From positions 1-64,000 of the forward strand of contig NZ_JACCKA010000051.1 in NCBI RefSeq assembly GCF_013425525.1: DNA of 64,000 bases, in the 5' to 3' direction. Positions 49,413-64,000 of the stretch are shown here, piece after piece. The DNA is from Luteimonas salinisoli (GTDB lineage: Bacteria > Pseudomonadota > Gammaproteobacteria > Xanthomonadales > Xanthomonadaceae). The notes beneath the pieces were generated by a model. It worked only from the letters and a program-made list of their open reading frames with translations, did not search any database and had not been told where the DNA came from. Position numbers and translations under genes: made by a program. Position 1 is the first letter of the stretch; the number at the start of each line of letters is the position of its first letter.

Positions 49413-49943
49413 TCAGGCCCCGGGACACCGCGTGGGGCGCGCCGGCCGCTCGCTGCGCACGCGGCCCAGGTTGCTGACGATCACCTTGCCGGCCAGTCCG
49501 CCCTCGCTGCACACCGCCACGCTGAAGTTGGTGCCGAGGCTGCGGCCGTCGGGCCGGTAGCGGACGAAATGGCGGCTCGACCGCAGTCCCAGGTGGCGGG
49601 CCGCACCCCGCGGCGCGTCGCTGGCGCGAAGGATCTGCTCGGGATGGTCCGGCTGGCGGTCGCCGTCGGGGTCGCGGAAGACCATCCAACCCTCGCGCCA
49701 GTCGCGGTCGTTGCGGCAGCGCAGCTGCGCCGTGCGCGGGCACACCACCACGTCGGCGCGGCCGGCGATCGCGCTGCTCCGCGCCATCGCCAGGTCGGCG
49801 CCGATCAGGTGCAGCGCGGTGGCGACGCGGTGCCGCTGCAGCGCATCGCCGAAGGCCGGCAGTCCGAAGGCCAGGGCGAGGGCGACGATGGCCAGCCCGG
49901 TCATCGCCTCGATCAGGGTGAATCCAGCATGCTTGCGGGTCAT
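49413..49943 (-). CDS. GspH/FimT family pseudopilin, second copy
   Basis: 176 residues. The type III signal [22 protein letters not shown] has the G-F cleavage site and Glu+5. The GspH domain pattern includes [37 protein letters not shown] and FRYRPDGRS-like [11 protein letters not shown], with Cys pair [10 protein letters not shown]. It stands alone, without other pil genes, between tRNA-Asn and uvrB. It is related in form to the fimT at 41877 but diverged in sequence. Confidence 0.88.
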
Positions 49944-50274
49944 TGGCGGCGTCCTTGCCGAAGAGCGGAGGGTAGTGTCGATCGGCGCGGCCCTGGCGTC
50001 CGTCGGCGCATCCGGGCAGGGGGGTAGGAATTCGCCGGCTTTTCGCGTCGGCGCATGGCGGCCGCGCCGCGCCGCGGGCAACCGGATCCGCGGACGGCGC
50101 TTGCCGGCCCGTTCTCCTCTCCGGGGACCTGCCGCGCCACCTCGCGAAGGCGCGATCCAGGAACCTGCGGACGTCGGCCGGGGGCCCACCTTCCCGGCTG
50201 GCCGTTGCGCCACGCTCACCTTGGCGGTCCCGCCAGCGACTAGACTGGGCGATTCATTCGCGCCCCCACGACCG

Positions 50275-52308
50275 ATGACCGATCAGGCTGCCGAACCCCG
50301 CTTCCGCCTCGTGGCCCCGTACACCCCTGCCGGCGACCAGCCGCCCGCGATCTCGCGCCTGATCGAAGGTTTCGAGTCCGGACTGGCCAGGCAGACCCTG
50401 CTCGGCGTCACCGGCTCCGGCAAGACCTACACCATCGCCAACGTGATCCAGGCGGTGCAGAAGCCGACCCTGGTGATGGCGCCGAACAAGACCCTGGCCG
50501 CGCAGCTGTACGGCGAGTTCAAGGCCTTCTTCCCGGACAACGCCGTCGAGTACTTCGTCAGCTACTACGACTACTATCAGCCCGAGGCCTACGTGCCGTC
50601 CTCGGACACCTACATCGAGAAGGACAGCTCGATCAACGACCACATCGAGCAGATGCGGCTGGCGGCGACCAAGGCGCTGCTGTCGCGGCCGGATGCCATC
50701 ATCGTGGCGACGGTGTCGGCGATCTACGGCCTGGGCGACCCGGAGGACTACCTGAAGTTGCGGCTGATCCTGGCCCGCGGCGAGCGCATTGAGCAGCGCG
50801 CGCTGATCCGCCACCTCACCGAGCTGCAGTACACCCGCAACGACGCCGAGCTGCGCCGCGGCACCTACCGGGTGCGCGGCGAGGTGATCGACGTGCATCC
50901 GGCCGAGTCGGACGCCGAGGCGCTGCGCATCGAGCTGTTCGACGGCGAGATCGAGAACCTCAGCCTGTTCGACCCGCTCACCGGTGAGGTGCAGCGCAAG
51001 GTGCCGCGCCATACCGTCTACCCCAAGACCCACTACGCCAGCACCCGCGAGAGCGTGCTCAAGGCGGTGGAGACGATCAAGGTCGAGCTGAAGGAGCGCC
51101 TGGAGCAGCTGTACGCGCAGAACAAGCTGGTCGAAGCCCAGCGCCTGGCGCAGCGCACCCAGTTCGACCTGGAGATGATGGCCGAAGTGGGGTTCTGCAA
51201 CGGCATCGAGAACTACTCGCGGCACATGACCCGCCGCCTGCCCGGCGAGCCGCCGCCGACCCTGTTCGACTACCTGCCGCCGGACGCCCTGCTGGTGGTC
51301 GACGAGTCGCACGTCACCGTCCCGCAGATCGGCGCGATGTACAAGGGCGACCGCTCGCGCAAGGAGACGCTGGTGGAGTTCGGTTTCCGGCTGCCGTCGG
51401 CGCTGGACAACCGGCCGCTGCGCTTCGAGGAATGGGAGGAGCGCTCGCCGCGCACCATCTTCGTCTCGGCCACCCCGGGACAATACGAGCTGCGCGAATC
51501 CGAGGGCGAGGTGGTGGAGCTGGTGGTGCGGCCGACCGGGCTGATCGACCCGGAGGTGGAGATCCGGCCGGTCGCCACCCAGGTCGACGACGTGCTCGGC
51601 GAGATCAATGCGCGAGTGGCGATGGGCGATCGGGTACTGATCACGACGCTGACCAAGCGCATGGCCGAGAACCTCACCGAGTACCTGGGCGAACACGGCG
51701 TGCGGGTACGCTATCTGCACTCGGACATCGATACCGTCGAGCGCGTGGAGATCATCCGCGACCTGCGCCTGGGCAACTTCGACGTGCTGGTCGGGATCAA
51801 CCTGCTGCGCGAGGGGCTGGACATGCCCGAGGTGTCGCTGGTGGCGATCCTCGACGCCGACAAGGAGGGCTTCCTGCGCTCCAGCGGTTCTCTGATCCAG
51901 ACCATCGGCCGCGCCGCGCGCAACCTGCGCGGCAAGGCGATCCTGTACGCCGACCGGGTGACGCGCTCGATGCAGGCCGCGCTGGACGAGACCGACCGCC
52001 GCCGCCAGAAGCAGGTGGAGTACAACGCGGAGCACGGCATCACCCCGAAGTCGGTGGCGCGGGCGATCGTCGACATCATGGAGGGCGCGCGCCCCGAGCC
52101 GGCGCTGGAGAAGCGCGGCCGCGGCAGGTCGCGCAAGGTCGCCGAGGAGGCCGAAGACTATGCCGCGCTGGATCCGGCGCAGCTGGCCTCCCGGCTCAAG
52201 GCCCTGGAGCAGCGGATGTACCAGCACGCCCGCGACCTGGAGTTCGAGGAGGCGGCGCAGGTCCGCGACCGCATCCGCAAGCTGAAGGAAGCGGCGCTGG
52301 TCGGGTGA
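50275..52308 (+). CDS. uvrB: excinuclease ABC subunit UvrB
   Basis: 677-residue nucleotide-excision-repair helicase that loads with UvrA and recruits UvrC. Walker A GVTGSGKT is at residues 44-51, the damage-probing beta-hairpin [12 protein letters not shown] at about 97-108, DESH is the motif II, and VSATPGQYE and the helicase domain 2 motif QTIGRAARN follow. The UvrB/UvrC-interacting coiled coil ends the protein ([24 protein letters not shown]). No clear LexA box was seen upstream. Confidence 0.97.
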
Positions 52309-52578: not shown

Positions 52579-52607
52579 TTGTCGCGGGTCGGGTAGCGGG
52601 GTAGAAT
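52579..52607 (+). promoter_or_regulatory. predicted promoter of tRNA-Val
   Basis: TTGTCG (52579-52584) and TAGAAT (52602-52607) have an ideal 17-bp spacer. The start would be near 52614, about 28 bp before the tRNA. The leader contains an inverted repeat CCCTGCGCG/CGCGCAGGG. Confidence 0.68.
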
Positions 52608-52641
52608 TCGCGGCCCTGCGCGGAGCTTCGCGCAGGGCATC

Positions 52642-52716
52642 GGGCGGTTAGCTCAGCGGTAGAGCACTACCTTGACATGGTAGGGGTCACAGGTTCGAAC
52701 CCTGTACCGCCCACCA
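52642..52716 (+). tRNA. tRNA-Val (GAC)
   Basis: 75 nt with an encoded CCA. Acceptor stem GGGCGGT pairs with ACCGCCC; the D arm is GCTCAGCGGTAGAGC; the anticodon stem CTACC/GGTAG encloses TTGACAT with anticodon GAC; the T arm is ACAGGTTCGAACCCTGT. Discriminator base A. Confidence 0.95.
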
Positions 52717-52807
52717 CCGCGATGCGGTGGACTCCTGCACGGCGCGGCCTCACGGCGGCGCCGTTTGCATTTCGGCCCGGGCCGGCACAGGACGGGCAGA
52801 GCCGGGA

Positions 52808-55800
52808 TCAGCGCCCCGCGCCGCGTCGGGCCAGCCGCTCGGCGAACTCCTCCAGGGCCTGCTCCAGCTCCAGCTCGCGCTGGCTCATGCGCGCGCCGGC
52901 GGTCTTCTTGCGCTCGCGCAGGGTGGCGGCGATGTTGCCGAGCACCGCCTGCAGCTGGGCGTGATCGTCCAGCGCCTCCAGCAGGGGCTGCACCGCGTCC
53001 CTCAGGCCGGCGCGCACGCCCTCGACGATCTCGACCGCCCCGGAGGCTGCGGGTTCGGCCTGCATGCGCTGCGGCGGCTCCTGTTGCTGCGGGGCGGCGA
53101 TGCGTTCCAGCGCGGCGATCGCCGCCGTCCAGCGCGGATCGTCGCCGTCCGCGGCGCCGTCCTCCGACCGTACCCCGAGGTCCCTCACGCCCTCCACCAG
53201 GTCGGCCAGCTGCGCCACCACCCGTCCACCGACATCGGCCTCTGCGCCGCCCATGGCGCGGTTGCGCTGGAAGTCGCGCTTGATCCGCGCCCAGCGTTCG
53301 GCCTGTTCGGCGGTCATCGCGCCGCGCAGTTCGGCGAGCTTGAGCAGGTTCTCCTCGGCGCCCGAGGTCAGCATCTGCGCCTCGCCGATGTAGTGGTCGT
53401 GCAGCAGCTGCTGCAGCTCGTCCTCGTTCATCGCCGCCGAGACCTTCTCGGCCAGCTTGTTCATGTTGCGGTAGCTGCCCTGCAGCCGGAACGCCGGCTC
53501 GGCGCGGTAGGCGTCGGCCTGGGCGGCGCTGGCGATGTACTGCTGGTTGACCCGGTAGACCACGTCGCGCACCCGCACCAGGCGCTGCAGGGTGCCGACG
53601 ATCTCGTTGGCTTCCGCGGCGCCGTAGGCGTGGCTGAAGTCGTTGTCCGAGACCTCGCGGCCCAGCGCTCTGTCGACGAAGCGGTAGAGGTCGCCGAGGT
53701 CGCGGGTGGCCAGGGGCGCCAGCACCGGACTCGAGGTCAGGCTGTTCTCGATGTAGCTGAGGACGAAGGCCTCCTCCATGCCGCCGAGCACGTCGCCGAG
53801 GTTGTAGATGTCGGCGCGGTTGGCGAGCATGTCCGGGATCCGGAACATTTCACCCGACTCGGTGTACGGGTTGCCGGCCATCACCACGCAGAACTTCTTG
53901 CCGCGCATGTCGTAGGTGCGGGTGCGCCCGCGCCACACGCCCTCGATGCGGCGGGTGCCGTCGCACAGCGAGATGAACTTCTGCAGGAACTCCGGATGGG
54001 TGTGCTGGATGTCGTCGACGTACAGCATCACGTTGTTGCCCATCTCCAGCGCCAGGTTGAGCTTCTCCAGCTCCTGGCGCGAGGTCGCGTCCGGCGCCTG
54101 GGCCGGGTCCAGCGAGCGCACTTCGTGGCCGAGCGCCGGCCCGTTGATCTTCATGAAGACCAGCCCCAGCCGGTGCGCCACGTATTCCATCAGCGTGGTC
54201 TTTCCGTAGCCGGGCGGCGAGATCATCATCAGCAGGCCGGACAGGTCGCTGCGGCGGTCGTCGCCGGCCGCGCCCATTTGCTTGGCGAGGTTGTCGCCGA
54301 TCACCGGCAGGTAGGCGTCGTTGATCAGCCGATTGCGTACGAACGAGGTCAGCGGCCGAGGCTTGAACTCCTCCAGCCGCATCCGCGCGCGCTCGCGGGC
54401 GACGACCTCCTGGCGCAGCGCCTGGAAGCGGCGCACGCCTTCTACGAAACCGGCATGCGCGGCGAGTCGGGCGCCGAACTCGTCGATGCCCAGGACCATC
54501 GCGCCATCGTCGATGCGCGGATGGTCGCCGAGCAGGCCGTCGACGCGCACCCGCAGATCGGTCGCGTCGATCCGGTGGGGCAGGTCGTCGCCGGCCAGCA
54601 GCAGTGCGACGGCCTCGTCGGCGTAGTCCGCCAGCGGCGCGAACTCCGGGTCGGCGGCCAGCGCGCGCAGCCAGTCGGCGGCCAGGGCCCAGCGCGGCGC
54701 CAGGCGTTCGCCCAGACCCGCCAGGGTGGAGACGAAACCGTCCCAGGCATGGGCCGCCGCGAGCTTCCGCTGCAAGCCGTCGAGCAGGCTGCGGCCGTAC
54801 TGGCTGATCGCGAAGCGGGGCTCGGGTTCGGCGAGCTCGGCGACCAGGTAGGCGGCGGCGCGCGCGCACAGCGCCGGATCGACCGGCAGCGGATGCGTCT
54901 CCAGGAAGGCGCCCGCAGCCTCCGCGATCTCGCGCTGCAATGCGAGCAGGCCGGCGTCGCTGTCCAGCAGCCGGCGGATGTCGCTGGCGGTCCGCGCCCG
55001 CGCCGGCCACTGCGCCGGATCGGGTTCGCGCCGCACCTGCGACCAGAACACCAGCGCCAGCGCGCGCACGTCGGCGGCATGGGCCAGGGTGCCCGCGCTG
55101 TCCTGCAGCGGCACCAGCGCCGCGAGGATGCGGCCGGCGTCGTGGTCGTGGATGCCGCGCTCGTAGCCGTCCCGGTAGCGCGGCGCGGCGAACTCGCGTA
55201 CCGCGCGGTCGAGTTCTGCGGGTTGCTTGACCAGCGCGCGCAGGCGTTGCGGCTCCAGGCCGTCGCGGCGCTCGCGTGCCGCCTCCAGCATCCGCGCGGC
55301 CAGGTACTCGCCGCGGTACACCTGCGGCGATTCCGATTCCAGCGCCACCTGCCAGTACTCGCGCAGCGCCTCCAGTCCTTCGTCCTTCAGCGGCTCGAAG
55401 TAGTCGGTGCCGGTGAGGTGGACGCTGAGGCCGTCGCCCCTCGGCAGGAGGGTGAGGTCCAGCTCCTGGGTGTTGACGCTGAAGCGGTGGCGCGGGCCGA
55501 GGCGGACGATGCTGCCGCCGTCCTCGAACAGGTCGCTGCGGTCGCGCTGGCCGCGCACCGCGGTGTCGCGCGCGGCCTTCAGCCTGGCCTCGACGTCGTC
55601 GGCGCGGACGTTGTCGTGCAGTTCGCGCAACCGTGCGGCCAGCTCGCGCAGCTTCAGGATCAGCGGATCGCCGGCGAAGAAGGCGTTGAGCGCGTCGGCG
55701 CCTTCCAGGCGGGCGGTGCGGCGGTCGAGGCCGTCGAGGATGCGCATCGCCGCATCGGCCACCGCCTGCGCCTTGCGCTGGCGTTCGTCGACGAGCGCCT

Positions 55801-58123
55801 GGCGGTGGGCATCGAACGCCTCCAGCATTTCCTCGCGCTTGGCGAGGATGTCGCCCAGGAACTGCTCGTGTTCGCCGAAGCGGCTTTCCAGCTCCTCCAG
55901 CTGGACCAGCAGGCGGGAGAGCTGCTCGTCGCAGCGCTCCGGGTCGGTGGCCGCGGCCAGGGCGCTGGCGATGCTCTGCCCGAACAGGGTGAACTGGGCG
56001 CCGAACTGCGCGACCATCTCGGCCGACCCCATGCCGCGGCGGCGCTGCTCCAGCCGCGCCTTGGCCTGGTTGAGTTTCGCGTAGACCGCTGAGATCGCCT
56101 CCACGATCGCGGTGCGCTGCAGCGCATCCTCCACCGGCAGCGACGCCATCAGCCCGGACAGGGTATCGAGCTCGCCGGCCATGTCCTGCATGCCCTGCAG
56201 CGGCGCGCGCAGCCCGGCGGTGCTGGTCGCCTCCGCGCCCTCGGCGTCGAACGCCGCCAGCCGCTCCAGGAACGGCGCCAGCGCGTTCTCGCCCGCCAGG
56301 AAGCGGCCGGTCGCCAGGCCGACGCGCTCGTGCGCCTGCTCCAGCTCGGCCGCCATCGCGTCGATGCGCTCGACGTCGACGTAGCGGTACTCGCGAATCG
56401 TCAGCAGGCGGCCGCGCTGCGCCGACAGCGCGCCCAGCGCGGCGACGAACTCGTCGATCCCGGTCCAGTCGTCCGGGCGCATGCCCGCCAGCAGCTCGCG
56501 GTGGCGGGTCTCGGCCGCGGCCATGGCGCGCGCCGACTCGGCGCGGATGTTCTCGACCTTCTCGAACTCGTCCAGGACCGACTCGCCGGTCGCGGCGATC
56601 CCGTGCAGCAGCGGCCCGACCTCGCCGCATTCGCGATCCTCGATCCAGTGGTGCAGGTCGAACAGGCGGCGGGTGTTGCGGGTCAGCAGCTCGTAGCGCT
56701 GCATCGAGACCGACTCGGCCTCGATCTCGCGCGTCAGGCTCATCAGGTCGGAGATGCCGCGGACCAGTTCGGCATTGCCGATGCGGCCGATGAAGCCTTC
56801 CCCCACCGGCTGCGCGGCGGCGTGCTCCTCGCTCTGGAACGGCGTCTGCCACACCTGCATCGGGTGGATGCGCGTGGGCTCGTCGCTCTCGGTGCTGAAG
56901 ATCACCATGCGCCCGTCGTCGAAGCGCGCATAGCCGTGGCCGAAGATCGGCGTGGTCAGGCGCCGCTCGATCATGTTGTAGGTGAACAGCGCGGTGCGGC
57001 CGCCCTCGGGCTCGTAGAAGACGTACAGCACGTCCTCGCCGTTGGGCGAGCGGATCGCGCGCTTGAAGCGCATGCCGGCCATCGATTGCTCGAAGGCACG
57101 GGTGTCGCCGCTGGGCAGGTAGTAGCCGCCGGGGAAGATGATGCCGTGGTCTTCTGGCAGCTGGATGCAGGCCTGGCCGATCGCGTCGATGCGCAGCACC
57201 GACTGGTCGAGGGTATTGAACACCAGGTAGCGCCAGTGTTCCTCGCGGTAGGGGCGCACCTTGAGCAGGATCAGGCTGCCCAGGCGCGCGAACTCGATCT
57301 GCGCATCGTCGAGCGACTGGGTCCGATCCTGCACCGGCTCGCTGTAGACGCCGAGCCCGACCTCGCTGTTGTTCTCCACCTTGACGGTCAGGTCGCCGCC
57401 GAGGGTCTCCACGAACACGGTGTCGAGGATGTTGACGTGCGGGTGGCGGCCGTTGACCGTCATCTCGCGGGTGGTCGGGGTCCACTCGAAATCGTAGGGC
57501 GCGGGCAGGGCGACGTCGCGCTCGCCGCGGTTGTCGATGTAGCGCACCTCGTTGCCGCCGCCCGATACCGCCCAGCGGAACACGCGTACGTCCTCGATCC
57601 GCTCGCCGATCTGGAACACCGCGAACACGCGATCCTCGCGCGACGACAGCTGCAGCAGGCGGGTGCCCTTGTAGTAGGCGTACAGCTCGCGAAAGTCGCG
57701 CTGGAACTCCGGCGCGGCGAGGAAGCTGCCGGCGTGATCGACCGGTGCGACCTCGTAGCCTTCGCCGGTGCGCTCGAGTCGATACAGCGAGAATACGTCC
57801 TCGACCGCGGTCTCGCTGCGCAAGCCGATGAAGACGTTGTATCCGAACAGCAGCAGCGGACCGACCTGGACGATGTCGCGGGCCACGCAGTTGTTCTCGG
57901 TGCGTACGCGCACCCGCCCGACCACCTCCATCCGGCTGCTGCCGAACTGCTCCAGTCGTCGCTGATTCAGCGCCTCGGCGAGGCCGCGCAGGCGCTGGCC
58001 CTGGTCGAGCAGGCGGCGGTGCAGCACCTCGTAGGCGCCGCCTTCGGCGACGGCGCGGTCCACCGCCCGACCGTCGTCGTGAGCGGGGGAGTCGTCGTGG
58101 GTCTCGGGAGCGTTCTCAGCCAT
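52808..58123 (-). CDS. giant AAA+ ATPase, DUF3686/DNA repair ATPase-like
   Basis: 1771-residue protein. The N-terminal 450 residues are rich in beta-strands and resemble a repeated propeller-like domain (FSLYRLERTGEGYEVAPVDHAG; DVLYVFYEPEGGRTALFTYNMIERR). About residues 480-900 are long charged helices with coiled-coil character. The AAA+ domain is near the C terminus: Walker A PPGYGKTT (about 1304-1311), Walker B VMLYVDDIQHTH (about 1363), sensor 1 VMAGNPYTESGE and IPDMLANRADIYNLGD, similar to MoxR-like ATPases. A final 250-residue helical tail follows. It lies 125 bp after the flotillin gene. Databases call such proteins DNA repair ATPase, but neighbours suggest a membrane-stress role. Confidence 0.85.
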   Translation of the reverse strand: MAENAPETHDDSPAHDDGRAVDRAVAEGGAYEVLHRRLLDQGQRLRGLAEALNQRRLEQFGSSRMEVVGRVRVRTENNCVARDIVQVGPLLLFGYNVFIGLRSETAVEDVFSLYRLERTGEGYEVAPVDHAGSFLAAPEFQRDFRELYAYYKGTRLLQLSSREDRVFAVFQIGERIEDVRVFRWAVSGGGNEVRYIDNRGERDVALPAPYDFEWTPTTREMTVNGRHPHVNILDTVFVETLGGDLTVKVENNSEVGLGVYSEPVQDRTQSLDDAQIEFARLGSLILLKVRPYREEHWRYLVFNTLDQSVLRIDAIGQACIQLPEDHGIIFPGGYYLPSGDTRAFEQSMAGMRFKRAIRSPNGEDVLYVFYEPEGGRTALFTYNMIERRLTTPIFGHGYARFDDGRMVIFSTESDEPTRIHPMQVWQTPFQSEEHAAAQPVGEGFIGRIGNAELVRGISDLMSLTREIEAESVSMQRYELLTRNTRRLFDLHHWIEDRECGEVGPLLHGIAATGESVLDEFEKVENIRAESARAMAAAETRHRELLAGMRPDDWTGIDEFVAALGALSAQRGRLLTIREYRYVDVERIDAMAAELEQAHERVGLATGRFLAGENALAPFLERLAAFDAEGAEATSTAGLRAPLQGMQDMAGELDTLSGLMASLPVEDALQRTAIVEAISAVYAKLNQAKARLEQRRRGMGSAEMVAQFGAQFTLFGQSIASALAAATDPERCDEQLSRLLVQLEELESRFGEHEQFLGDILAKREEMLEAFDAHRQALVDERQRKAQAVADAAMRILDGLDRRTARLEGADALNAFFAGDPLILKLRELAARLRELHDNVRADDVEARLKAARDTAVRGQRDRSDLFEDGGSIVRLGPRHRFSVNTQELDLTLLPRGDGLSVHLTGTDYFEPLKDEGLEALREYWQVALESESPQVYRGEYLAARMLEAARERRDGLEPQRLRALVKQPAELDRAVREFAAPRYRDGYERGIHDHDAGRILAALVPLQDSAGTLAHAADVRALALVFWSQVRREPDPAQWPARARTASDIRRLLDSDAGLLALQREIAEAAGAFLETHPLPVDPALCARAAAYLVAELAEPEPRFAISQYGRSLLDGLQRKLAAAHAWDGFVSTLAGLGERLAPRWALAADWLRALAADPEFAPLADYADEAVALLLAGDDLPHRIDATDLRVRVDGLLGDHPRIDDGAMVLGIDEFGARLAAHAGFVEGVRRFQALRQEVVARERARMRLEEFKPRPLTSFVRNRLINDAYLPVIGDNLAKQMGAAGDDRRSDLSGLLMMISPPGYGKTTLMEYVAHRLGLVFMKINGPALGHEVRSLDPAQAPDATSRQELEKLNLALEMGNNVMLYVDDIQHTHPEFLQKFISLCDGTRRIEGVWRGRTRTYDMRGKKFCVVMAGNPYTESGEMFRIPDMLANRADIYNLGDVLGGMEEAFVLSYIENSLTSSPVLAPLATRDLGDLYRFVDRALGREVSDNDFSHAYGAAEANEIVGTLQRLVRVRDVVYRVNQQYIASAAQADAYRAEPAFRLQGSYRNMNKLAEKVSAAMNEDELQQLLHDHYIGEAQMLTSGAEENLLKLAELRGAMTAEQAERWARIKRDFQRNRAMGGAEADVGGRVVAQLADLVEGVRDLGVRSEDGAADGDDPRWTAAIAALERIAAPQQQEPPQRMQAEPAASGAVEIVEGVRAGLRDAVQPLLEALDDHAQLQAVLGNIAATLRERKKTAGARMSQRELELEQALEEFAERLARRGAGR

Positions 58124-58185
58124 GCTTCATCCTGCCCGCCACCCGGGGCGGTCGAGCGGCGAGCCAGGGCCCGCCGTGCATCCAT

Positions 58186-58239
58186 GTGATCCGGCAGCCG
58201 CCGGATCACGCGAAGCCCCGGCCGCCGTGGCGCCGGGGC
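58186..58239. repeat. two hairpins between flotillin and ATPase genes
   Basis: GTGATCCGGC (58186-58195) and GCCGGATCAC (58200-58209) form a perfect 10-bp stem with an AGCC loop. GCCCCGGC (58215-58222) and GCCGGGGC (58232-58239) form a second stem. There is no T run, so they may tune mRNA processing between the two genes and are not a typical terminator. Confidence 0.6.
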
Positions 58240-58248
58240 CGGCGGCGG

Positions 58249-60252
58249 TCAGCCGTCGGCGCGCGGCGCGGGCGCAGCCTTGTCGCCGGCGGCGGCCTCG
58301 GCCGCCAGCGGCATCAGCCGCTTCAGCATGTCCTGCACCAGCGGGCTCTTGCCGGCCACGCCCTCGATCGCCTTGCCCACCGACAGCGCCTTGGCGAAAG
58401 AGTTGAAGAACTCGCCCTCGCCGCCGACGATGTCGATCTTCGCCTTGCTGAGCGCCGAGGCCAGCACCTCGGCCTGCTCCCGGGCGATGTCCTTGCCGGC
58501 CTCGATCGAGGCGATCGCCTGCTCGAAGCTCTTCTCGAGCTGCATGCGGAACTCCTCGTGCTCGCGCGCCTTGTCGCCGAGCTGCTCCAGCGCGCCGAAC
58601 TTGTCGGTCAGGCCCTCGGCCTCGGAGCGGAACTTCTCGCGCAGCACCTCGGCCTCGGCCAGGCCGACGTCGCGAGCCGCCTTGGCCTTGGCCACGGCCA
58701 GCGACTCCTCGCCGCGCGCCTGGGCGGTGAGCTTCTCCTCCAGGACCTTGGCATCCGCCAGGCCCTGGTCCTGCCGGCCGCGGGCCTCGGCGGTCATCTT
58801 CTCGGCCACGACCTTGGCCTCGGCCAGGCCTTCCTTCTCCATCGCCGCCGCGGTGATCTCGCGCACCCGCGCATCGGCCAGGCCCGGCGCGGCGCGCTCG
58901 GCCTCGGTGCCCTCGGCCAGCTTCTTCTGCGCCTCGGCCTTCTTCGCGGCAGCCTCCAGCTCGGCCTGGGCGATGGTGGTCAGCTCCACCGCCTTGTGCC
59001 TGGACGCGGTCTCCTCGGCCTCGGCCTGCTTGACCTGCCGCACCAGTTCCTCCTCCGCCTGCGCCTGGGCGTTGAGGATCGCCACCTGCTTGAGGCGGTC
59101 GGCTTCGGAGACCTCGCGAACCTCCTTGATGCGCTCCTCTTCCTGGGCGACGGATTTCTCCACCACGATGCGCTCGCGGATGACGTTGGCGATCTCCTTG
59201 CGCTGCTCCTCCAGCGCCTTTTCCTTCTCGATCCGCTGCAGCTCGACCTCGCGCTCGCGCGAGACGATCTCCAGATCGCGCGCGCGCGAGACCTTCTCCA
59301 CCTCGATCACCACCGCGCGCTGGCGGTTCTGCTGCGCCACCTCGACCTCGCGCTGGCGGTTCTCCTCGCGGATGTCGATCTGCTCCTGGGTCTGGATGCG
59401 GGCGTGCTCAGCCTTGAGCCGCTCCTCCTCGCGCACCTTCTCGGTCTCGGCCTCCTCGCGCGCCCGGATGGTCTCGATCTCGCGCTTCTGCCGCGCCTCG
59501 GCGTCGGCCTGCTGGCGCTCCAGCGCCAGCATCGCCTCGCGGGTCTCGACGTTCTTCTTGGTGATCGCCAGCTCCTCGTTGCGCGAGAGCTCGTTGGTGA
59601 TCACGTTCTGCGCCGCGGTCAGTTCGGTGATCTTGCGGATGCCCTCGGCGTCGAGGATGTTGGACGGGTCGAGCGAGTGCTTGGGCGTCTGCTCCAGGTA
59701 GTCGATCGCCACGTCCTCGAGCACATAGCCGTTGAGGTCGTTGCCGATCACCTCGACGATGCGGTCGCGGAAGTCCTGGCGGTTCTCGAACAGCTTGACG
59801 AAGTCGATCTGCTTGCCGACCGTCTTCAGCGCCTCGGAGAACTTGGCGTTGAACAGCTCGTTGACCGCGCCCTTCTCCGAGGCGCGGTCGACGCCGATCG
59901 CCTTGGCGACCTTGAGCACGTCCTGCGGCGTTTCGTTGACGCGCAGGTAGAAGGCGACGGTGATGTCGGCGCGCATGTTGTCGCGGCAGATCAACCCGTC
60001 CTTGCCCCGCCGATCCACCTCGAGGGTGATCAGCGAGATCTTCATGAACTCCTTCTTGTAGATGATCGGGTAGACCAGCGCACCGGTGAAATGCACTTTC
60101 GGCGTGGCCGACAGGTCGTTGACGATCAGCGCGGTGCCCTGAGGCACCTTGATGTAGAAGGCCTTGAACATCACGAACAGGCCCAGGATCACCACCACGA
60201 GGACGCCGATCCCCAGCAGGAACGGCATCAGCAGTGCGAGGTCGAGAGTCAT
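58249..60252 (-). CDS. yqiK: flotillin family protein (YqiK-like)
   Basis: 667-residue flotillin. An N-terminal membrane helix (FLLGIGVLVVVILGLFVMF) is followed by an SPFH/band-7 domain (about 35-200: FYIKVPQGTALIVND, RDNMRADITVAFYLRVNETP, YVLEDVAIDYLEQTPKHSLDP). About residues 220-590 are Glu/Ala/Arg-rich coiled coil, then a short C-terminal domain ending in Ala/Pro-rich tail. YqiK forms membrane microdomain scaffolds in E. coli, encoded with yqiJ. The yqiJ-like gene lies just upstream with a 66-bp gap. Confidence 0.92.
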   Translation of the reverse strand: MTLDLALLMPFLLGIGVLVVVILGLFVMFKAFYIKVPQGTALIVNDLSATPKVHFTGALVYPIIYKKEFMKISLITLEVDRRGKDGLICRDNMRADITVAFYLRVNETPQDVLKVAKAIGVDRASEKGAVNELFNAKFSEALKTVGKQIDFVKLFENRQDFRDRIVEVIGNDLNGYVLEDVAIDYLEQTPKHSLDPSNILDAEGIRKITELTAAQNVITNELSRNEELAITKKNVETREAMLALERQQADAEARQKREIETIRAREEAETEKVREEERLKAEHARIQTQEQIDIREENRQREVEVAQQNRQRAVVIEVEKVSRARDLEIVSREREVELQRIEKEKALEEQRKEIANVIRERIVVEKSVAQEEERIKEVREVSEADRLKQVAILNAQAQAEEELVRQVKQAEAEETASRHKAVELTTIAQAELEAAAKKAEAQKKLAEGTEAERAAPGLADARVREITAAAMEKEGLAEAKVVAEKMTAEARGRQDQGLADAKVLEEKLTAQARGEESLAVAKAKAARDVGLAEAEVLREKFRSEAEGLTDKFGALEQLGDKAREHEEFRMQLEKSFEQAIASIEAGKDIAREQAEVLASALSKAKIDIVGGEGEFFNSFAKALSVGKAIEGVAGKSPLVQDMLKRLMPLAAEAAAGDKAAPAPRADG

Positions 60253-60318
60253 CGGTCCATCTCCATATGAAGAACAGTGAGCGGGTACGGCGCGCCATCG
60301 GCGGCCGGTGAACGGCCG

Positions 60319-60957
60319 CTAGCGGCCGTGGAATTCGTCCTCGCCGACCACCCGGTAGGCGTTGTCCGGTTCGAGGTACTCGAGCAGCACTACGCGGTCG
60401 CCGCGGTGGAAGCCGCCTTCGCGGTCGCTGCGCACCTGCAGGATCAGGCCTGCGCCGCCGTCCTCGACGGTGGCCTGGCCGCCGGTGGCGGTGACGGCAG
60501 GGCTGCGCACGGTGGCCGCCATACCGATGACCGAGCGTTGCGCCTGTGGCGCCAGCCGGGCGAGGAAGTGGCGGATCGGACGCAGCGCCTGCCCGGCCCC
60601 CAGCACCCCGGCCACGAACGCGACCAGCAGCACCACCGCGCCGAGCGGAAAGCGGAGCAAGGTAGAGCCGAGATGCCGCAGCAGCAGGTAGTCGGCGAAA
60701 TAGCTGACAAGCCAGGCAATGAAGGCGAGCAGGGTGAGGACCAGCATCAGCGGCAGGCCGCCGAGCCCGAACTTCATCATCACCGCGGTCAGGCCCTGCG
60801 GCTCCATGCCGTCGATGTCGGGCAGCGCCCAGCCGTCCAGGGCTTCGCTCTGGAAGATCCCCAGGGCTGCCAGCAGCCACAGCGCCACCATGACCCCAAG
60901 CGCGAGGCTGAAGACCACGGTCGGGAACGAAAGCGCGATGCGTAGAAACTCTTCCAT
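60319..60957 (-). CDS. YqiJ-like membrane protein with C-terminal OB-fold
   Basis: 212 residues. Three hydrophobic helices (VVFSLALGVMVALWLLAAL; GLPLMLVLTLLAFIAWLVSY; FPLGAVVLLVAFVAGVLG) are followed by a soluble OB-fold/NfeD-like domain (IGMAATVRSPAVTATGGQATVE, VVLLEYLEPDNAYRVV). NfeD-type proteins pair with SPFH proteins and assist their membrane assembly. It is in an operon with the flotillin downstream and PspA upstream. Confidence 0.87.
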   Translation of the reverse strand: MEEFLRIALSFPTVVFSLALGVMVALWLLAALGIFQSEALDGWALPDIDGMEPQGLTAVMMKFGLGGLPLMLVLTLLAFIAWLVSYFADYLLLRHLGSTLLRFPLGAVVLLVAFVAGVLGAGQALRPIRHFLARLAPQAQRSVIGMAATVRSPAVTATGGQATVEDGGAGLILQVRSDREGGFHRGDRVVLLEYLEPDNAYRVVGEDEFHGR

Positions 60958-60993
60958 TGCCTCCCCCTGGCCCGTCCGGGCCACCCCCGCCGG

Positions 60994-61074
60994 GCGCCTT
61001 GGCGCCCGGCTCGACATTCGGCGCCTTGGCGCCCGGCCCGACGTTCGGCGCCCTGGCGCCCGGCCCATCATGGA
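60994..61074. repeat. three 27-bp tandem palindromic repeats
   Basis: GCGCCTTGGCGCCCGGC-type units start at 60994, 61021 and 61048, exactly 27 bp apart. Each contains the near-palindrome GGCGCC-TT-GGCGCC (third copy CT in the centre). They fill the 161-bp gap between the pspA stop and the yqiJ start and would form stacked hairpins in the mRNA. Confidence 0.82.
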
Positions 61075-61118
61075 CGCCGGCGGGCGTCCGGCTCAATCAC
61101 GCGGCACGTGAACGCCGG

Positions 61119-61814
61119 TCAGTCCGCCTGCTGGCGGCTCTTCAGCCGATCGAGCACCGACTCCGCGCTTGCCGCATCGGCGAGGATGCCGGCGTCGCGC
61201 AACTTGGCGTCGACGACGTCCGTGCCTTCGTCGCGCGCCAGCTCCGACGCCGCCTCCATGCGCGCGCCGCGCTCGGCCTGGCGCTTCTTGACTCGCTCCA
61301 GCGAGTCCACCGCAGTCTGCAGGCGCGACTGCGAGCCGCTGTAGCGGTGCGCCACCGTGGCCTGGGCGCGCTGCACGCTCTCCGTGGCCTTGACCGTGTC
61401 GACCTGCTGCTTGAGCCGCCGGATGTTGCTCTCGGCCTGGCTGATCGCCTTGCGCAGGTCCGCCACGCTGGCCTGGAACTGCCCGACCTGCTGGCGCTCG
61501 CCGTCGCGCACCTGCTCCATCGCGGCGATCTTGCCGGCCACCTCCCGGGCGAGATTCTCGTCGCCACCATCGAGTGCCTTGATGGCATAGGCCTCGTACT
61601 CGCCGACCTTCTTCTCGGACTCGGCCAGCCTGGCCTCGGACAACTTCAGCTTGGCCATGATCTCGGCCAGCGCTTCCTTGGACCGGCGCAGCTCGTTGTC
61701 GGAGTCGCGGATCTCCTGGTCGAGAATGCGCAGGGCCTGGCCGTCGACCACCGCCTCGCCCATCTCGTTGGCGCCGCCGCGCAGGGCGGTCAGCAACTTG
61801 CTCCAGATGTTCAT
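61119..61814 (-). CDS. PspA/IM30 family protein (YjfJ-like)
   Basis: 231 residues, almost all helical coiled coil. The N terminus MNIWSKLLTALRGGANEMGEAVVD resembles YjfJ; the following segments ALRILDQEIRDSDNELRRSKEAL, NIRRLKQQVDTVKATESVQRAQATV and a short C-terminal helix after GTDVVDAKLRDAGI match the ESCRT-III-like PspA fold. Such proteins bind and repair stressed membranes. It lies 23 bp after the DUF2170 gene, as yjfJ follows yjfI in E. coli. Confidence 0.9.
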   Translation of the reverse strand: MNIWSKLLTALRGGANEMGEAVVDGQALRILDQEIRDSDNELRRSKEALAEIMAKLKLSEARLAESEKKVGEYEAYAIKALDGGDENLAREVAGKIAAMEQVRDGERQQVGQFQASVADLRKAISQAESNIRRLKQQVDTVKATESVQRAQATVAHRYSGSQSRLQTAVDSLERVKKRQAERGARMEAASELARDEGTDVVDAKLRDAGILADAASAESVLDRLKSRQQAD

Positions 61815-61837
61815 GTCCTGTCTCCTCGCCGGGCCGC

Positions 61838-62452
61838 TCAGGCGGCCGCCTTCAGGTGGGATTCGTACGCCTCGGTGGCCTTGATCACGTTGTCGGCCAG
61901 GCTCTCGATCTCGAAGGCCACGTTCGACAGGGAGGAGCGGGCATCCAGCGCGCCGAACATGATGTAGGCCGCTTCCCCGCCCATCTGTTCGATGCCGATG
62001 GTCGAGAGCGGGAACATCTTGTGGGTGCGCAGCACTTCCTCGTTGAACGCCGCCGCGTCGCCGACCTGCGAGACCGGCCACAGCAGCGCCTCGACCACGA
62101 TCTGCTCGCCGACCACCGCCAGGAACAGCGGAAGATCGCCGTAGTCGCGCATCACCAGGTGCAGGCTCTGGTCGGCGCCGTCGAGCAACTCGGCGCTCAC
62201 CGCGCCTGCGCTGAACTGTTCGGTGGCCGACAGCGCCTCGTACAGCGCCCGGGTGGTCCATACCTTCTGTTCGCTCATCTGCCTCTCCCTCGGGTTGGGC
62301 GCCGGGCCCCGCGGCTGGCGCATGCGTCGCTCGACTGCCGCGAGTTCGTCGGCGAACTCGGGCAGGATCCACAGCTCCTTCTTCACCAGGCCCTGCTCGC
62401 GCAGGCGCTCGCGGTGGCGGCGCTGGTAATAGGCGGAGGTTCTGCGTTCCAT
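61838..62452 (-). CDS. DUF2170 (YjfI-like) protein with predicted DNA-binding N terminus
   Basis: 204 residues from ATG 62452. The C-terminal 140 residues are DUF2170 (YjfI), VWTTRALYEALSATEQF to ADNVIKATEAYESHLKA. The N-terminal 50 residues read RTSAYYQRRHRERLREQG then VKKELWILPEFADELAAVERR, a pattern like MazE-like/DUF3018 ribbon-helix-helix proteins (helix, strand, helix). Such a fold would suit binding to the palindromes just upstream. No ribosome site precedes 62452 and the predicted start point is only a few bases upstream, so the mRNA may be leaderless. GTG 62473 and ATG 62470 are in-frame alternatives lying in an operator. Confidence 0.82.
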   Translation of the reverse strand: MERRTSAYYQRRHRERLREQGLVKKELWILPEFADELAAVERRMRQPRGPAPNPRERQMSEQKVWTTRALYEALSATEQFSAGAVSAELLDGADQSLHLVMRDYGDLPLFLAVVGEQIVVEALLWPVSQVGDAAAFNEEVLRTHKMFPLSTIGIEQMGGEAAYIMFGALDARSSLSNVAFEIESLADNVIKATEAYESHLKAAA

Positions 62453-62460
62453 GAGTCGCA

Positions 62461-62526
62461 GCTTAATCATCACATGTGATCGGTGTCAATAGATCACATG
62501 TGATTTTTTCAAGAGTCACATGTAAC
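62461..62526 (-). promoter_or_regulatory. promoter and three palindromic operators of the DUF2170-pspA operon
   Basis: ATCACATGTGAT occurs at 62469-62480 and 62493-62504, 24 bp apart, and a close relative GTCACATGTAAC at 62515-62526, 22 bp further. On the reverse strand TTGACA (62489-62484) is a perfect -35 box; 17 bp later TTAAGC (62466-62461) is a weak -10. The first operator lies in the spacer, so a bound repressor would block polymerase. A fourth, half-matching site (CATGTGAT, 62831-62838) lies upstream of the TerB-like gene. Confidence 0.72.
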
Positions 62527-62537
62527 GGGTCGAATGG

Positions 62538-62780
62538 CTATTCGATGCCGTGCTGGCGGCGGGCCTGGGCGATGCGCTCCGCCACGTCCGGCGTCACCCC
62601 GGCCTGCTCGGCGCGCCGGAAGACGTTGTCGAGCACGCGCTTCTCGTCCTCGTCGACGCGGGCGTCGCGCAGCGCCAGATCGAGCAGCCGCTGGAGTTCG
62701 GTCGCGTCCATGCGGCCGTCGTCGGTGAACACCGGGATGGCGCCGAGGGCGATGTCGAGGTGGCTGTGTCCGGTGTTCAT
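62538..62780 (-). CDS. small acidic TerB-like helical protein
   Basis: 80 residues: a short N terminus, then PVFTDDGRMDATELQRLLDLALRDARVDEDEKRVLDNVFRRAEQ. The acidic helix-rich pattern with a repeated D-x-x-x-E spacing resembles one half of TerB/tellurite-resistance-type domains; an EF-hand reading was considered but the loop is incomplete. It is upstream of the DUF2170 gene on the same strand, with the operators between. It may be a single-gene unit of the same regulon. Confidence 0.65.
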   Translation of the reverse strand: MNTGHSHLDIALGAIPVFTDDGRMDATELQRLLDLALRDARVDEDEKRVLDNVFRRAEQAGVTPDVAERIAQARRQHGIE

Positions 62781-62972
62781 GATGATTCCCTTCGTGTCTG
62801 GCCGTGCCGGCCGGTAGGCCATGTTAAACCCATGTGATGGCCACGGTCGTCGTCGGCGGCCTGCGATGGTGCCGCCGGGTTCGCGGCGGCGGTCTGCCGT
62901 GCCCCCGGCGTTTCACCGCACCTTGTGGCGAGCTGCGCTATCACCACCATAACGAACCGGCGCGGAGAGGCC

Positions 62973-64000
62973 ATGCATGAGCCGACGGATCTGAAGTTCG
63001 AGCCCTATCGGGGGCCGGCCGGGGGCTGGGGCTCGGTGCATTCGCTGCTGCGCTTCGGCACCGGCAGCCAGGTGCCGACGGTGGAGGCGATGCGGCAGCT
63101 GGCCCGCCAGAACAAGGCCGACGGCTTCATGTGCGTCAGTTGCGCCTGGGCGAAGCCTAAGGATCCGCATGCCTTCGAGTTCTGCGAAAACGGCGCCAAG
63201 GCCACGTTCTGGGAGCTGGACCAGGGACGGGTCGGCGCCGATTTCTTCGCCCGCCATCCGGTGTCCGAACTGCTGCAGTGGCCGGACTTCGACCTCGAGC
63301 GCAAGGGGCGGCTGACCGAACCGCTGCGCTACGACCGCGACAGCGACCGCTACGTGCCGATCGCCTGGGAGGAGGCCTTCGCCACCATCGGCCGCGAACT
63401 GCGCGCGCTGGACCCGGCCGGCGTGGTGTTCTATGCCTCCGGGCGCGCGTCCCTGGAGACGTCGTACATGTACGCGCTGCTGGCGCGCCTGTACGGCAAC
63501 AACAATCTGCCCGACAGCTCCAACATGTGCCACGAAAGCACGTCGGTGGGGCTGCCGCGCAGCATCGGGGTGCCGGTGGGTACGGTGCTGCTGGAGGACT
63601 TCGAGGCGACCGACTGCATCCTCTCTTTCGGCCAGAACGTCGGCACCAACGCGCCGCGGATGCTGCACCAGCTACAGGAGGCGAGCCGGCGCGGCGTGCC
63701 GATCCTGACCTTCAACCCGCTGCGCGAGCGCGGCTGGGAGCGCTTCATCAATCCGCAGGAGCCGGTGCCGATGGCGACCGGCACCTCGACCCGGATCAGT
63801 TCCGGCTACCACCAGGTGCGGGCAGGGGGCGACCTGGCGCTGGTCCAGGGGCTGTGCAAGGCGCTGCTGGAGGCAGACGACGCGGCCCAGCGCGATGGCG
63901 CGGCACGCGTGCTCGACGTCGACTTCATCGCCGTCCATACCCGCGGGTTCGAGGATTTCGCAGCGTCGCTTCGCGCCACCGGCTGGGACGAGATCGAGCG
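62973..64000 (+). CDS. YdeP-like FdhF family molybdopterin oxidoreductase, partial
   Basis: Open at the window edge; 342 residues are visible. The start ATG 62973 has GGAGAGG 3 bp upstream. Features: FEPYRGPAGGWGSVHSLL, FMCVSCAWAKPKDP and FEFCENGAKATFWE as in YdeP-type enzymes, then the molybdopterin domain with FYASGRASLETSYMYALLARLYG, NNLPDSSNMCHESTSVG and FGQNVGTNAPRML. YdeP is linked to acid resistance in E. coli; its substrate is not known. It is divergent from the TerB-like gene. Confidence 0.88.
   Translation, partial: MHEPTDLKFEPYRGPAGGWGSVHSLLRFGTGSQVPTVEAMRQLARQNKADGFMCVSCAWAKPKDPHAFEFCENGAKATFWELDQGRVGADFFARHPVSELLQWPDFDLERKGRLTEPLRYDRDSDRYVPIAWEEAFATIGRELRALDPAGVVFYASGRASLETSYMYALLARLYGNNNLPDSSNMCHESTSVGLPRSIGVPVGTVLLEDFEATDCILSFGQNVGTNAPRMLHQLQEASRRGVPILTFNPLRERGWERFINPQEPVPMATGTSTRISSGYHQVRAGGDLALVQGLCKALLEADDAAQRDGAARVLDVDFIAVHTRGFEDFAASLRATGWDEIE

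Follow-up and report, generated by a model that had tools for sequence, protein, structure and literature searches.

The 64,000-nucleotide stretch of Luteimonas salinisoli DNA analysed here (contig NZ_JACCKA010000051.1, positions 1 to 64,000; hereafter the window) carries at 52808-62780 a bac-type phage-shock protein (PSP) operon, in which genes for the DUF2170 protein BacA, PspA, a YqiJ-like protein, a flotillin-like protein and an AAA+ ATPase are preceded by a TerB-like gene. All six reverse-strand genes claimed in a preliminary description of this DNA are present as open reading frames (ORFs), on the same strand and closely spaced:

52808..58123, reverse strand: AAA+ ATPase of 1771 amino acids (aa) with DUF3686, DUF7902 and an AAA+ module at about residues 1215-1680 (Pfam)
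58249..60252, reverse strand: band-7/flotillin-like protein of 667 aa, named from the Band_7 match of one homologue and the linkage to the ATPase
60319..60957, reverse strand: YqiJ-like membrane protein, with its likely start at M39 of the 60319-61071 ORF
61119..61814, reverse strand: PspA of 231 aa, the BacB counterpart (PspA_IM30)
61838..62452, reverse strand: long form of bacA, 204 aa, with an N-terminal module (about residues 1-46), a linker and DUF2170 (NCBIfam BacA)
62538..62780, reverse strand: TerB/EF-hand-like small protein, 80 aa from the ATG at 62780, named from family matches; the full ORF (62538-62822) encodes 94 aa

Profile searches bore out the labels ATPase, PspA and DUF2170 on the window proteins themselves. 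The ATPase matches DUF3686 (E=6e-206), DUF7902 (1e-23) and AAA_5 (6e-6), and its Walker A K1308/T1309, Walker B D1370-D1371, N1418, R1436 and R1552 are invariant in 88/88 aligned ATPases; by position, it is the counterpart of BacE/PA3728. PspA matches PspA_IM30 (E=1.8e-49, scored on a slightly shortened ORF), and the 61838-62452 product matches DUF2170 (4e-50) and the NCBIfam model BacA (1e-105, across model positions 1-206). For flotillin and YqiJ, the window proteins by themselves give weak support, and the labels hold through homologues. The 58249-60252 protein, the BacD counterpart by position, has no Band_7 match of its own in Pfam; one of its seven aligned homologues reaches Band_7 (5e-6), and a profile search of solved structures returned no relevant relative for the family. 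The YqiJ-like protein scores E=0.66 against PF21001 (YqiJ_N), under the family cut-off, and 4/16 homologues match YqiJ_N (best 7e-5). Its start probably lies 38 codons inside the listed ORF, as M39 is invariant in 16 sequences. The product of the 94-aa ORF has no convincing Pfam match by itself; among the 12 members of its family, seven match TerB (E<=1, best 0.004) and five an EF-hand pair (best 2.5e-4). The source genome (4.52 Mb, 95 contigs) holds a single match each to DUF3686, BacA and PspA_IM30, all in the cluster.

The reading of this cluster as an envelope-stress and membrane-scaffold system is well supported and already in print (PMC11237479; PMC10948618); the membrane-repair machine that the preliminary description added to it is conjectural. 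In Pseudomonas aeruginosa, the six genes bacABCDEF are cotranscribed by reverse-transcription PCR, and BacB-F are 6.1- to 13.5-fold more abundant when bacA is mutated (PMC10948618). PA3732 was given as a 16-kDa protein in 2008 (PMC2587700), PA3728-PA3732 are upregulated upon phage infection (PMC12041424) and a BacA-BacB contact has been computed with a probability of 0.981 (PMC13092808). PA3728 has been entered as an 'ATPase' (PMC8190622). Furthermore, a pa3728 insertion mutant used as an unrelated control showed good growth on glucose, succinate and fumarate (PMC12599236), so the ATPase is dispensable for ordinary growth in that organism.

We compared the window with 80 named loci (the best 80 of at least 571, and Pseudomonas-rich) and with an even phylum sample of 299 genomes. 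Eight genomes of that sample carry the ATPase, the window's among them, and the other seven contributed one locus each (87 loci in all). In 72 of the 80 named loci, the contig extends 8 kb or more upstream of the ATPase. Full-length BacA defined a set of 56 bacA operons (53 named, two from the phylum sample and the window). This set excludes L046, where the match begins at residue 44, and L015, where a BacA-like match of 19 bits fell under the threshold. The 32 loci without full-length BacA include 24 whose contigs reach 8 kb or more beyond the ATPase on its upstream side and eight on shorter contigs (L014, L020, L068, L076, L079, L085, L086 and L088). The long BacA start in each locus was the ATG (or GTG/TTG) nearest the alignment start, as chosen by script. 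An independent class sample of 369 genomes served for the link between the BacA module and its motif.

BacA is conserved over its N-terminal ~46 residues, with R14, R16, G21, K24, K25, W28, P31, L37, E41 and R45 invariant in 40 sequences. Differences at codon positions 1/2/3 amount to 0.29/0.17/0.56 in this module and 0.51/0.54/0.62 in the linker; the module is constrained at positions 1 and 2 about as DUF2170 is, whereas the linker is not. Over 140 columns, window BacA shares 58% identity with the crystallised protein, whose chain (8q8o) spans BacA profile positions 63-205 and leaves the conserved ~60-aa N-terminal part outside it. Together with the operators, promoter register and internal start described below, the module suggests that the present crystal structure and gene model represent the regulator incompletely. 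The module bears a weak likeness, under curated cut-offs, to UrfF (plasmid repression protein F; 31/40 sequences) and to MazE-like antitoxins (21/40), at E-values up to 1 (best 1.7e-4 and 0.0098, respectively). None of the sequences reached the ribbon-helix-helix/MazE-like family PF11455 above its cut-off (best 0.0098; window 13.5 bits against a cut-off of 22). A single-chain model of BacA places helices at residues 6-19 and 31-45 of the module with low confidence, and the leading rows of a Foldseek search with the model were BacA itself, type-III chaperones and YbjN-like proteins.

Three putative operators precede bacA in the window, identified from the motif copies there and in the compared loci:

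62470..62479, no strand assigned: operator palindrome 1, TCACATGTGA
62494..62503, no strand assigned: operator palindrome 2, TCACATGTGA
62516..62525, no strand assigned: operator palindrome 3, TTACATGTGA on the reverse strand

The motif, TYACATGTRA, occurs 92 times in the 11,200 bases upstream of the 56 bacA genes and twice in the remaining 1,390,015 bases of those loci. It is present in 51/56 bacA operons (its core, ACATGT, in 53/56) and in none of the 32 loci without full-length BacA. The core is doubled or more in 50/56 operons, compared to three operons for the runner-up among the 64 six-base palindromes. Successive operators are 21-24 bp apart in 42 gaps and 13 bp apart in 10, with spacings of 14, 16, 17, 29 and 92 bp found once each. 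Six further loci (L100-L105) all have operators in tandem and an internal start whose Shine-Dalgarno match is at least 5. All three copies in the window's genome lie at the bacA promoter. In the class sample, the tandem motif accompanies seven of eight loci with the N-terminal module, one of them the window's own, and none of 22 with DUF2170 alone. Where the module has diverged (L052, L059 and L066, which may be one lineage) the operator has too, as six of the seven TTTCATGTAA/TTACATGAAA sites in the 56 loci are at these three promoters. The simplest reading of these patterns is that the module binds the palindromes.

Binding by another regulator, either CRP/Vfr-like or a distinct repressor, would leave BacA to act via protein contacts only, in keeping with its chaperone fold. 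The DUF2170 domain does resemble ExsC and YbjN, regulators that work in this way (PMC10948618). We consider such a division of labour unlikely, because the motif tracks the BacA module across genera, is lost along with it and diverges together with it. Furthermore, the CRP-type site TGTGA-N6-TCACA is perfect in none of the 56 operons, has one mismatch in four and two in 10.

The operators interleave with a predicted sigma-70-type promoter, placed in the window by the consensus register:

62460..62465, reverse strand: predicted -10 hexamer TAAGCT, 7 nt before the long ATG
62484..62489, reverse strand: predicted -35 hexamer TTGACA, with a spacer of 18 that holds operator 1

The 39 operons with 21-24 bp operator spacing share TTGA (34, 27, 20 and 30 of 39 at the successive positions), 17 bp with the operator and TA...T (33, 33 and 31 of 39), all at a fixed distance from the gene-proximal operator. 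In 41/56 operons the long ATG is preceded, at 6-7 nt, by the end of a TAnnnT hexamer; widening the zone to 4-10 nt gives 46/56, versus 2-6/56 in seven shifted zones. This register predicts a transcript start on the long ATG or directly beside it, and translation of long BacA from a leaderless message. A Shine-Dalgarno match of at least 4 precedes the long start in 6/56 operons. A sigma-54-dependent promoter, as proposed in print from sequence for the P. aeruginosa bac operon (Wallart 2024, PMC10948618; Mace 2008, PMC2587700), is improbable for the compared loci. The best match to TGGCAYRNNNNTTGCW in the 56 upstream regions, none of them from P. aeruginosa, has two mismatches in one region, three in 17, four in 35 and five in three, at scattered places and with no consistent site, whereas the sigma-70 register is shared among the operons.

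A second start is predicted within the variable linker, where an in-frame ATG is present in 53/56 operons:

61838..62278, reverse strand: predicted short form of bacA (146 aa, DUF2170 alone), started at an internal ATG that has a Shine-Dalgarno signal; 8q8o covers the same part
62282..62291, reverse strand: Shine-Dalgarno-like stretch GAGGGAGAGG ahead of the short-form start codon, with a weak score of 4 in the window

In 41/53 operons the Shine-Dalgarno match of the linker ATG is at least 5, compared to 134/4047 internal ATGs in neighbouring operon genes and 4/192 elsewhere in bacA. The predicted short product spans the same extent as the published BacA.

Taken together, the gene set, the operators, their tie to the N-terminal module, the promoter register and the internal start signal support a bac-type PSP operon with BacA as its dedicated autorepressor, a reading to which we assign a probability of roughly 0.7. 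From them we infer DNA binding by BacA, two forms of the protein and a PspA signal together with its sign. Long BacA would be made from the leaderless transcript and bind two or three tandem TYACATGTRA operators via its N-terminal module, blocking the sigma-70-type promoter; the internal Shine-Dalgarno start would yield the second, DUF2170-only BacA. The DUF2170 domain, which has a type-III-chaperone fold, could bind PspA, and the state of PspA (free versus assembled on the membrane) would then set the amount of long BacA that stays on the DNA. Envelope damage would thus lift repression, and PspA, the flotillin/YqiJ scaffold and the ATPase would rise together. Autorepression would also explain the published 6-13-fold rise of BacB-F in the bacA mutant. 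The published cotranscription, the computed BacA-BacB contact, the rise of PA3728-PA3732 on phage infection and the linkage of the ATPase also speak for this reading of the operon. A more elaborate version, which we hold tentatively and rate somewhat below even odds, makes bacA a two-protein switch gene encoding a leaderless long autorepressor and a short PspA-binding chaperone, possibly with mixed dimers, so that the occupancy of the membrane by PspA sets the balance between them and hence repression of the operon via its own operator. If true, this switch would be spread over gammaproteobacteria, betaproteobacteria and one record titled Deltaproteobacteria.

Several observations weigh against autorepression by BacA or narrow its reach. 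bacA mutants also have lower rhamnolipids and swarming, beyond what autorepression alone explains, and PA3732 changed by log2 -1.05 in a temperature comparison (PMC4957987). The sigma-54 site of Wallart et al. was proposed in P. aeruginosa, a species outside the compared loci (PMC10948618). The resemblance of the module to UrfF and MazE-like proteins stays below cut-offs, and the single-chain model has a pLDDT of 56-74 over the module. Across 14 genomes searched, the motif occurs 1 to 10 times each (0 to 5 for a reversed-pattern control); control of a single target is therefore clear only in some genomes, and more targets are possible. L106 has a related module and no motif, L097 has its operators at -147 and -55, and five Gilliamella/Frischella loci have theirs farther upstream (-45 to -87), which makes a leader likely in those five. 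The linker score is the best of the ATGs in the linker and is hence favoured, the match in the window is only 4, and the internal ATG is missing in three loci. Finally, a free sigma-70 search scored barely above shuffles (mean best score 8.18 versus 7.68), leaving the shared register as the only promoter evidence used, and a generic promoter scan of 52600-63100 found no promoter.

The predicted promoter and operators (62460-62525) probably cut the TerB-like gene off from the other five, so that the six genes would not form one transcription unit. The TerB/EF-hand-like family is found in 23/80 named loci (before bacA in three, between flotillin and ATPase in 15 and after the ATPase in five); the gene precedes bacA in L098, L066 and L034, as in the window. 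All but one of its carriers (22/23) are within the 54 BacA loci, and the remaining one, L020, lies on a short contig. In the window, a molybdopterin oxidoreductase gene (62925-64000, forward strand) diverges from the TerB-like gene on its upstream side.

The comparison also bears on the partners of the ATPase. Flotillin lies upstream of it on the same strand in 77/80 named and 7/7 phylum-sample loci (71/72 of those with at least 8 kb), and YqiJ in 74/80 and 7/7 (71/72). The corresponding counts are 55/80, 2/7 and 53/72 for PspA and 54/80, 2/7 and 53/72 for BacA. Flotillin is within 700 bp of the ATPase in 74/80 loci, and few loci have other genes inserted. The clustering of the ATPase with flotillin and YqiJ is far beyond chance and is stronger than its linkage to PspA, which moves the likely partner away from PspA and towards flotillin/YqiJ. 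L083 (Methyloprofundus) has no flotillin or YqiJ in the 9.9 kb upstream and is the sole such case among the 72 loci. The ATPase relative of L013 (4916-10051, reverse strand) has an in-frame TGA near its N-terminus and an otherwise open frame. Downstream of the ATPase and on the same strand, 20/80 named loci, 14 of them with BacA, have a gene for a rhomboid-family membrane protease, one member of which (L049:14893-15477) matches PF01694 at E=1.8e-16.

The preliminary description called the ATPase MoxR-like, a label favoured by its fold. The model of the AAA+ module has a mean pLDDT of 78.7. In VIA-align, the ten top rows were CbbQ/NorQ (Z 14.8-16.6), led by 6l1q (Z 16.6, rmsd 3.4, 240 aligned) and 9qh9 (Z 16.5, rmsd 3.8, 241 aligned), with ClpA and dynein next at 14.2; the margin over these two is 0.6 to 2.4 in Z and lower MoxR rows tie with them, in a listing that does not rule out AAA+ families missing from it. 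Foldseek ranked RuvB chains first by E-value, but with a lower TM-score. CbbQ/NorQ proteins, of the MoxR class, are thus the nearest folds by VIA-align, at 13-15% identity; unlike in them, the window module makes up the C-terminal portion of a protein of 1771 aa that also has DUF3686 and DUF7902.

The ATPase had also been described as annotated elsewhere as DNA repair, a label that we trace to the Pfam description of DUF3686. A role as a DNA-repair protein with incidental neighbours would fit that description, the weak RuvB profile scores of the protein and the RuvB chains that top the Foldseek E-value list, as well as the window itself, where uvrB (49711-52308, forward strand) is convergent downstream of the ATPase. 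We regard this role as highly improbable, given the linkage to flotillin and YqiJ in 71/72 loci. A tRNA-Val gene (52642-52716, forward strand) also lies downstream of the ATPase in the window. No uvrB homologue is present in any of the 87 compared loci. RecJ is the only DNA-repair gene among nine neighbour families scanned with Pfam (one representative each, from the 25 commonest families), and it occurs in 16/80 loci, at 2-9 kb past the ATPase; seven loci have a gene for a UPF1-type helicase. The neighbourhood comparison called for in the preliminary description therefore does not refute its reading: homologues of the ATPase travel with flotillin and YqiJ and, among the families scanned, not mostly with DNA-repair genes.

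We give about even odds to a membrane-repair complex whose ATPase would remodel assemblies of PspA or flotillin, much as Vps4 acts on ESCRT-III. Such a complex is a matter of effector function and is compatible with autorepression by BacA. Such activity is consistent with the invariant AAA+ motifs of the 88 ATPases, the MoxR-class fold, the linkage to flotillin/YqiJ (71/72) and PspA (53/72) and the ESCRT-like assembly roles proposed by Ravi et al. (PMC11237479). However, PspA is not next to the ATPase in 19/72 loci and in 5/7 phylum-sample loci and is thus not an obligate partner. Remodelling of PspA or flotillin, as first suggested, therefore stands better for flotillin, which the linkage favours, than for PspA, the weaker half. 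The substrate of the ATPase would most likely be the flotillin/YqiJ scaffold and, where present, PspA.

The operon type is known, and its control architecture (operator, module and two starts) was not found described in the literature, subscription papers and supplements aside. Our literature search found no publication joining PspA, flotillin and DUF3686 or naming DUF3686; nor did 'ttacatgt' appear together with 'phage shock' in the searched literature, where DUF2170 does occur. Control of bac-type PSP operons matters because the other Bac proteins increase 6-13-fold when bacA is deleted, yet the part of BacA that has been studied, DUF2170, has no described DNA-binding domain. The module, the dedicated operators, the promoter register and the internal start would together give a simple, testable account of this control and offer a reporter-ready promoter for asking what the bac-type membrane-stress system senses.

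Among known systems, the closest in gene content is the operon group of Ravi et al., which joins CesT/Tir-PspA, band-7, YqiJ and an AAA+ ATPase fused to a coiled coil and a beta-propeller, and whose description includes a phospholipase D (PLD) gene (Ravi 2024, PMC11237479). Its gene set, as far as the accessible text describes it, is probably that of the window cluster, in which the band-7 and YqiJ members are named through homologues, and its ATPase architecture is probably shared as well; the CesT/Tir-like DUF2170 gene adjoins pspA in both. The Ravi-group ATPase is defined with an N-terminal beta-propeller and coiled coil; in the window ATPase, we found DUF3686 and AAA+. No PLD gene was recognised beside the window ATPase, a point of difference from the P. 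aeruginosa bac operon; a PLD-like gene follows the ATPase in 24/80 named loci. A word search of the main text of that study, in its accessible portion, returned no operators, palindromes, autoregulation, rhomboid or TerB partner.

The bac operon of P. aeruginosa also has a DUF2170 BacA followed by a PspA-like BacB (PMC2587700; PMC10948618). The BacA published there is the 16-kDa, 139-residue DUF2170 part, and the accessible text of both papers does not mention the N-terminal module, the operator or the second start by word search. The sigma-54 promoter proposed for that operon differs from the sigma-70-type register of the loci compared here.

Canonical Psp systems (pspF-pspABC) have in common with the bac-type operon PspA as an effector of the envelope-stress response. 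The window pspA sits between bacA and the YqiJ-like gene with no pspB, pspC or pspF beside it (pspF was sought at this locus and not elsewhere in the genome), and the single PspC match of the genome is on a different contig (C69). A difference lies in the control logic: canonical Psp relies on the PspF activator acting on sigma-54, whereas the window operon would rely on an autorepressor acting on a sigma-70-type promoter. The two-protein switch, if true, would provide a repressor-based alternative to the activator logic of PspF.

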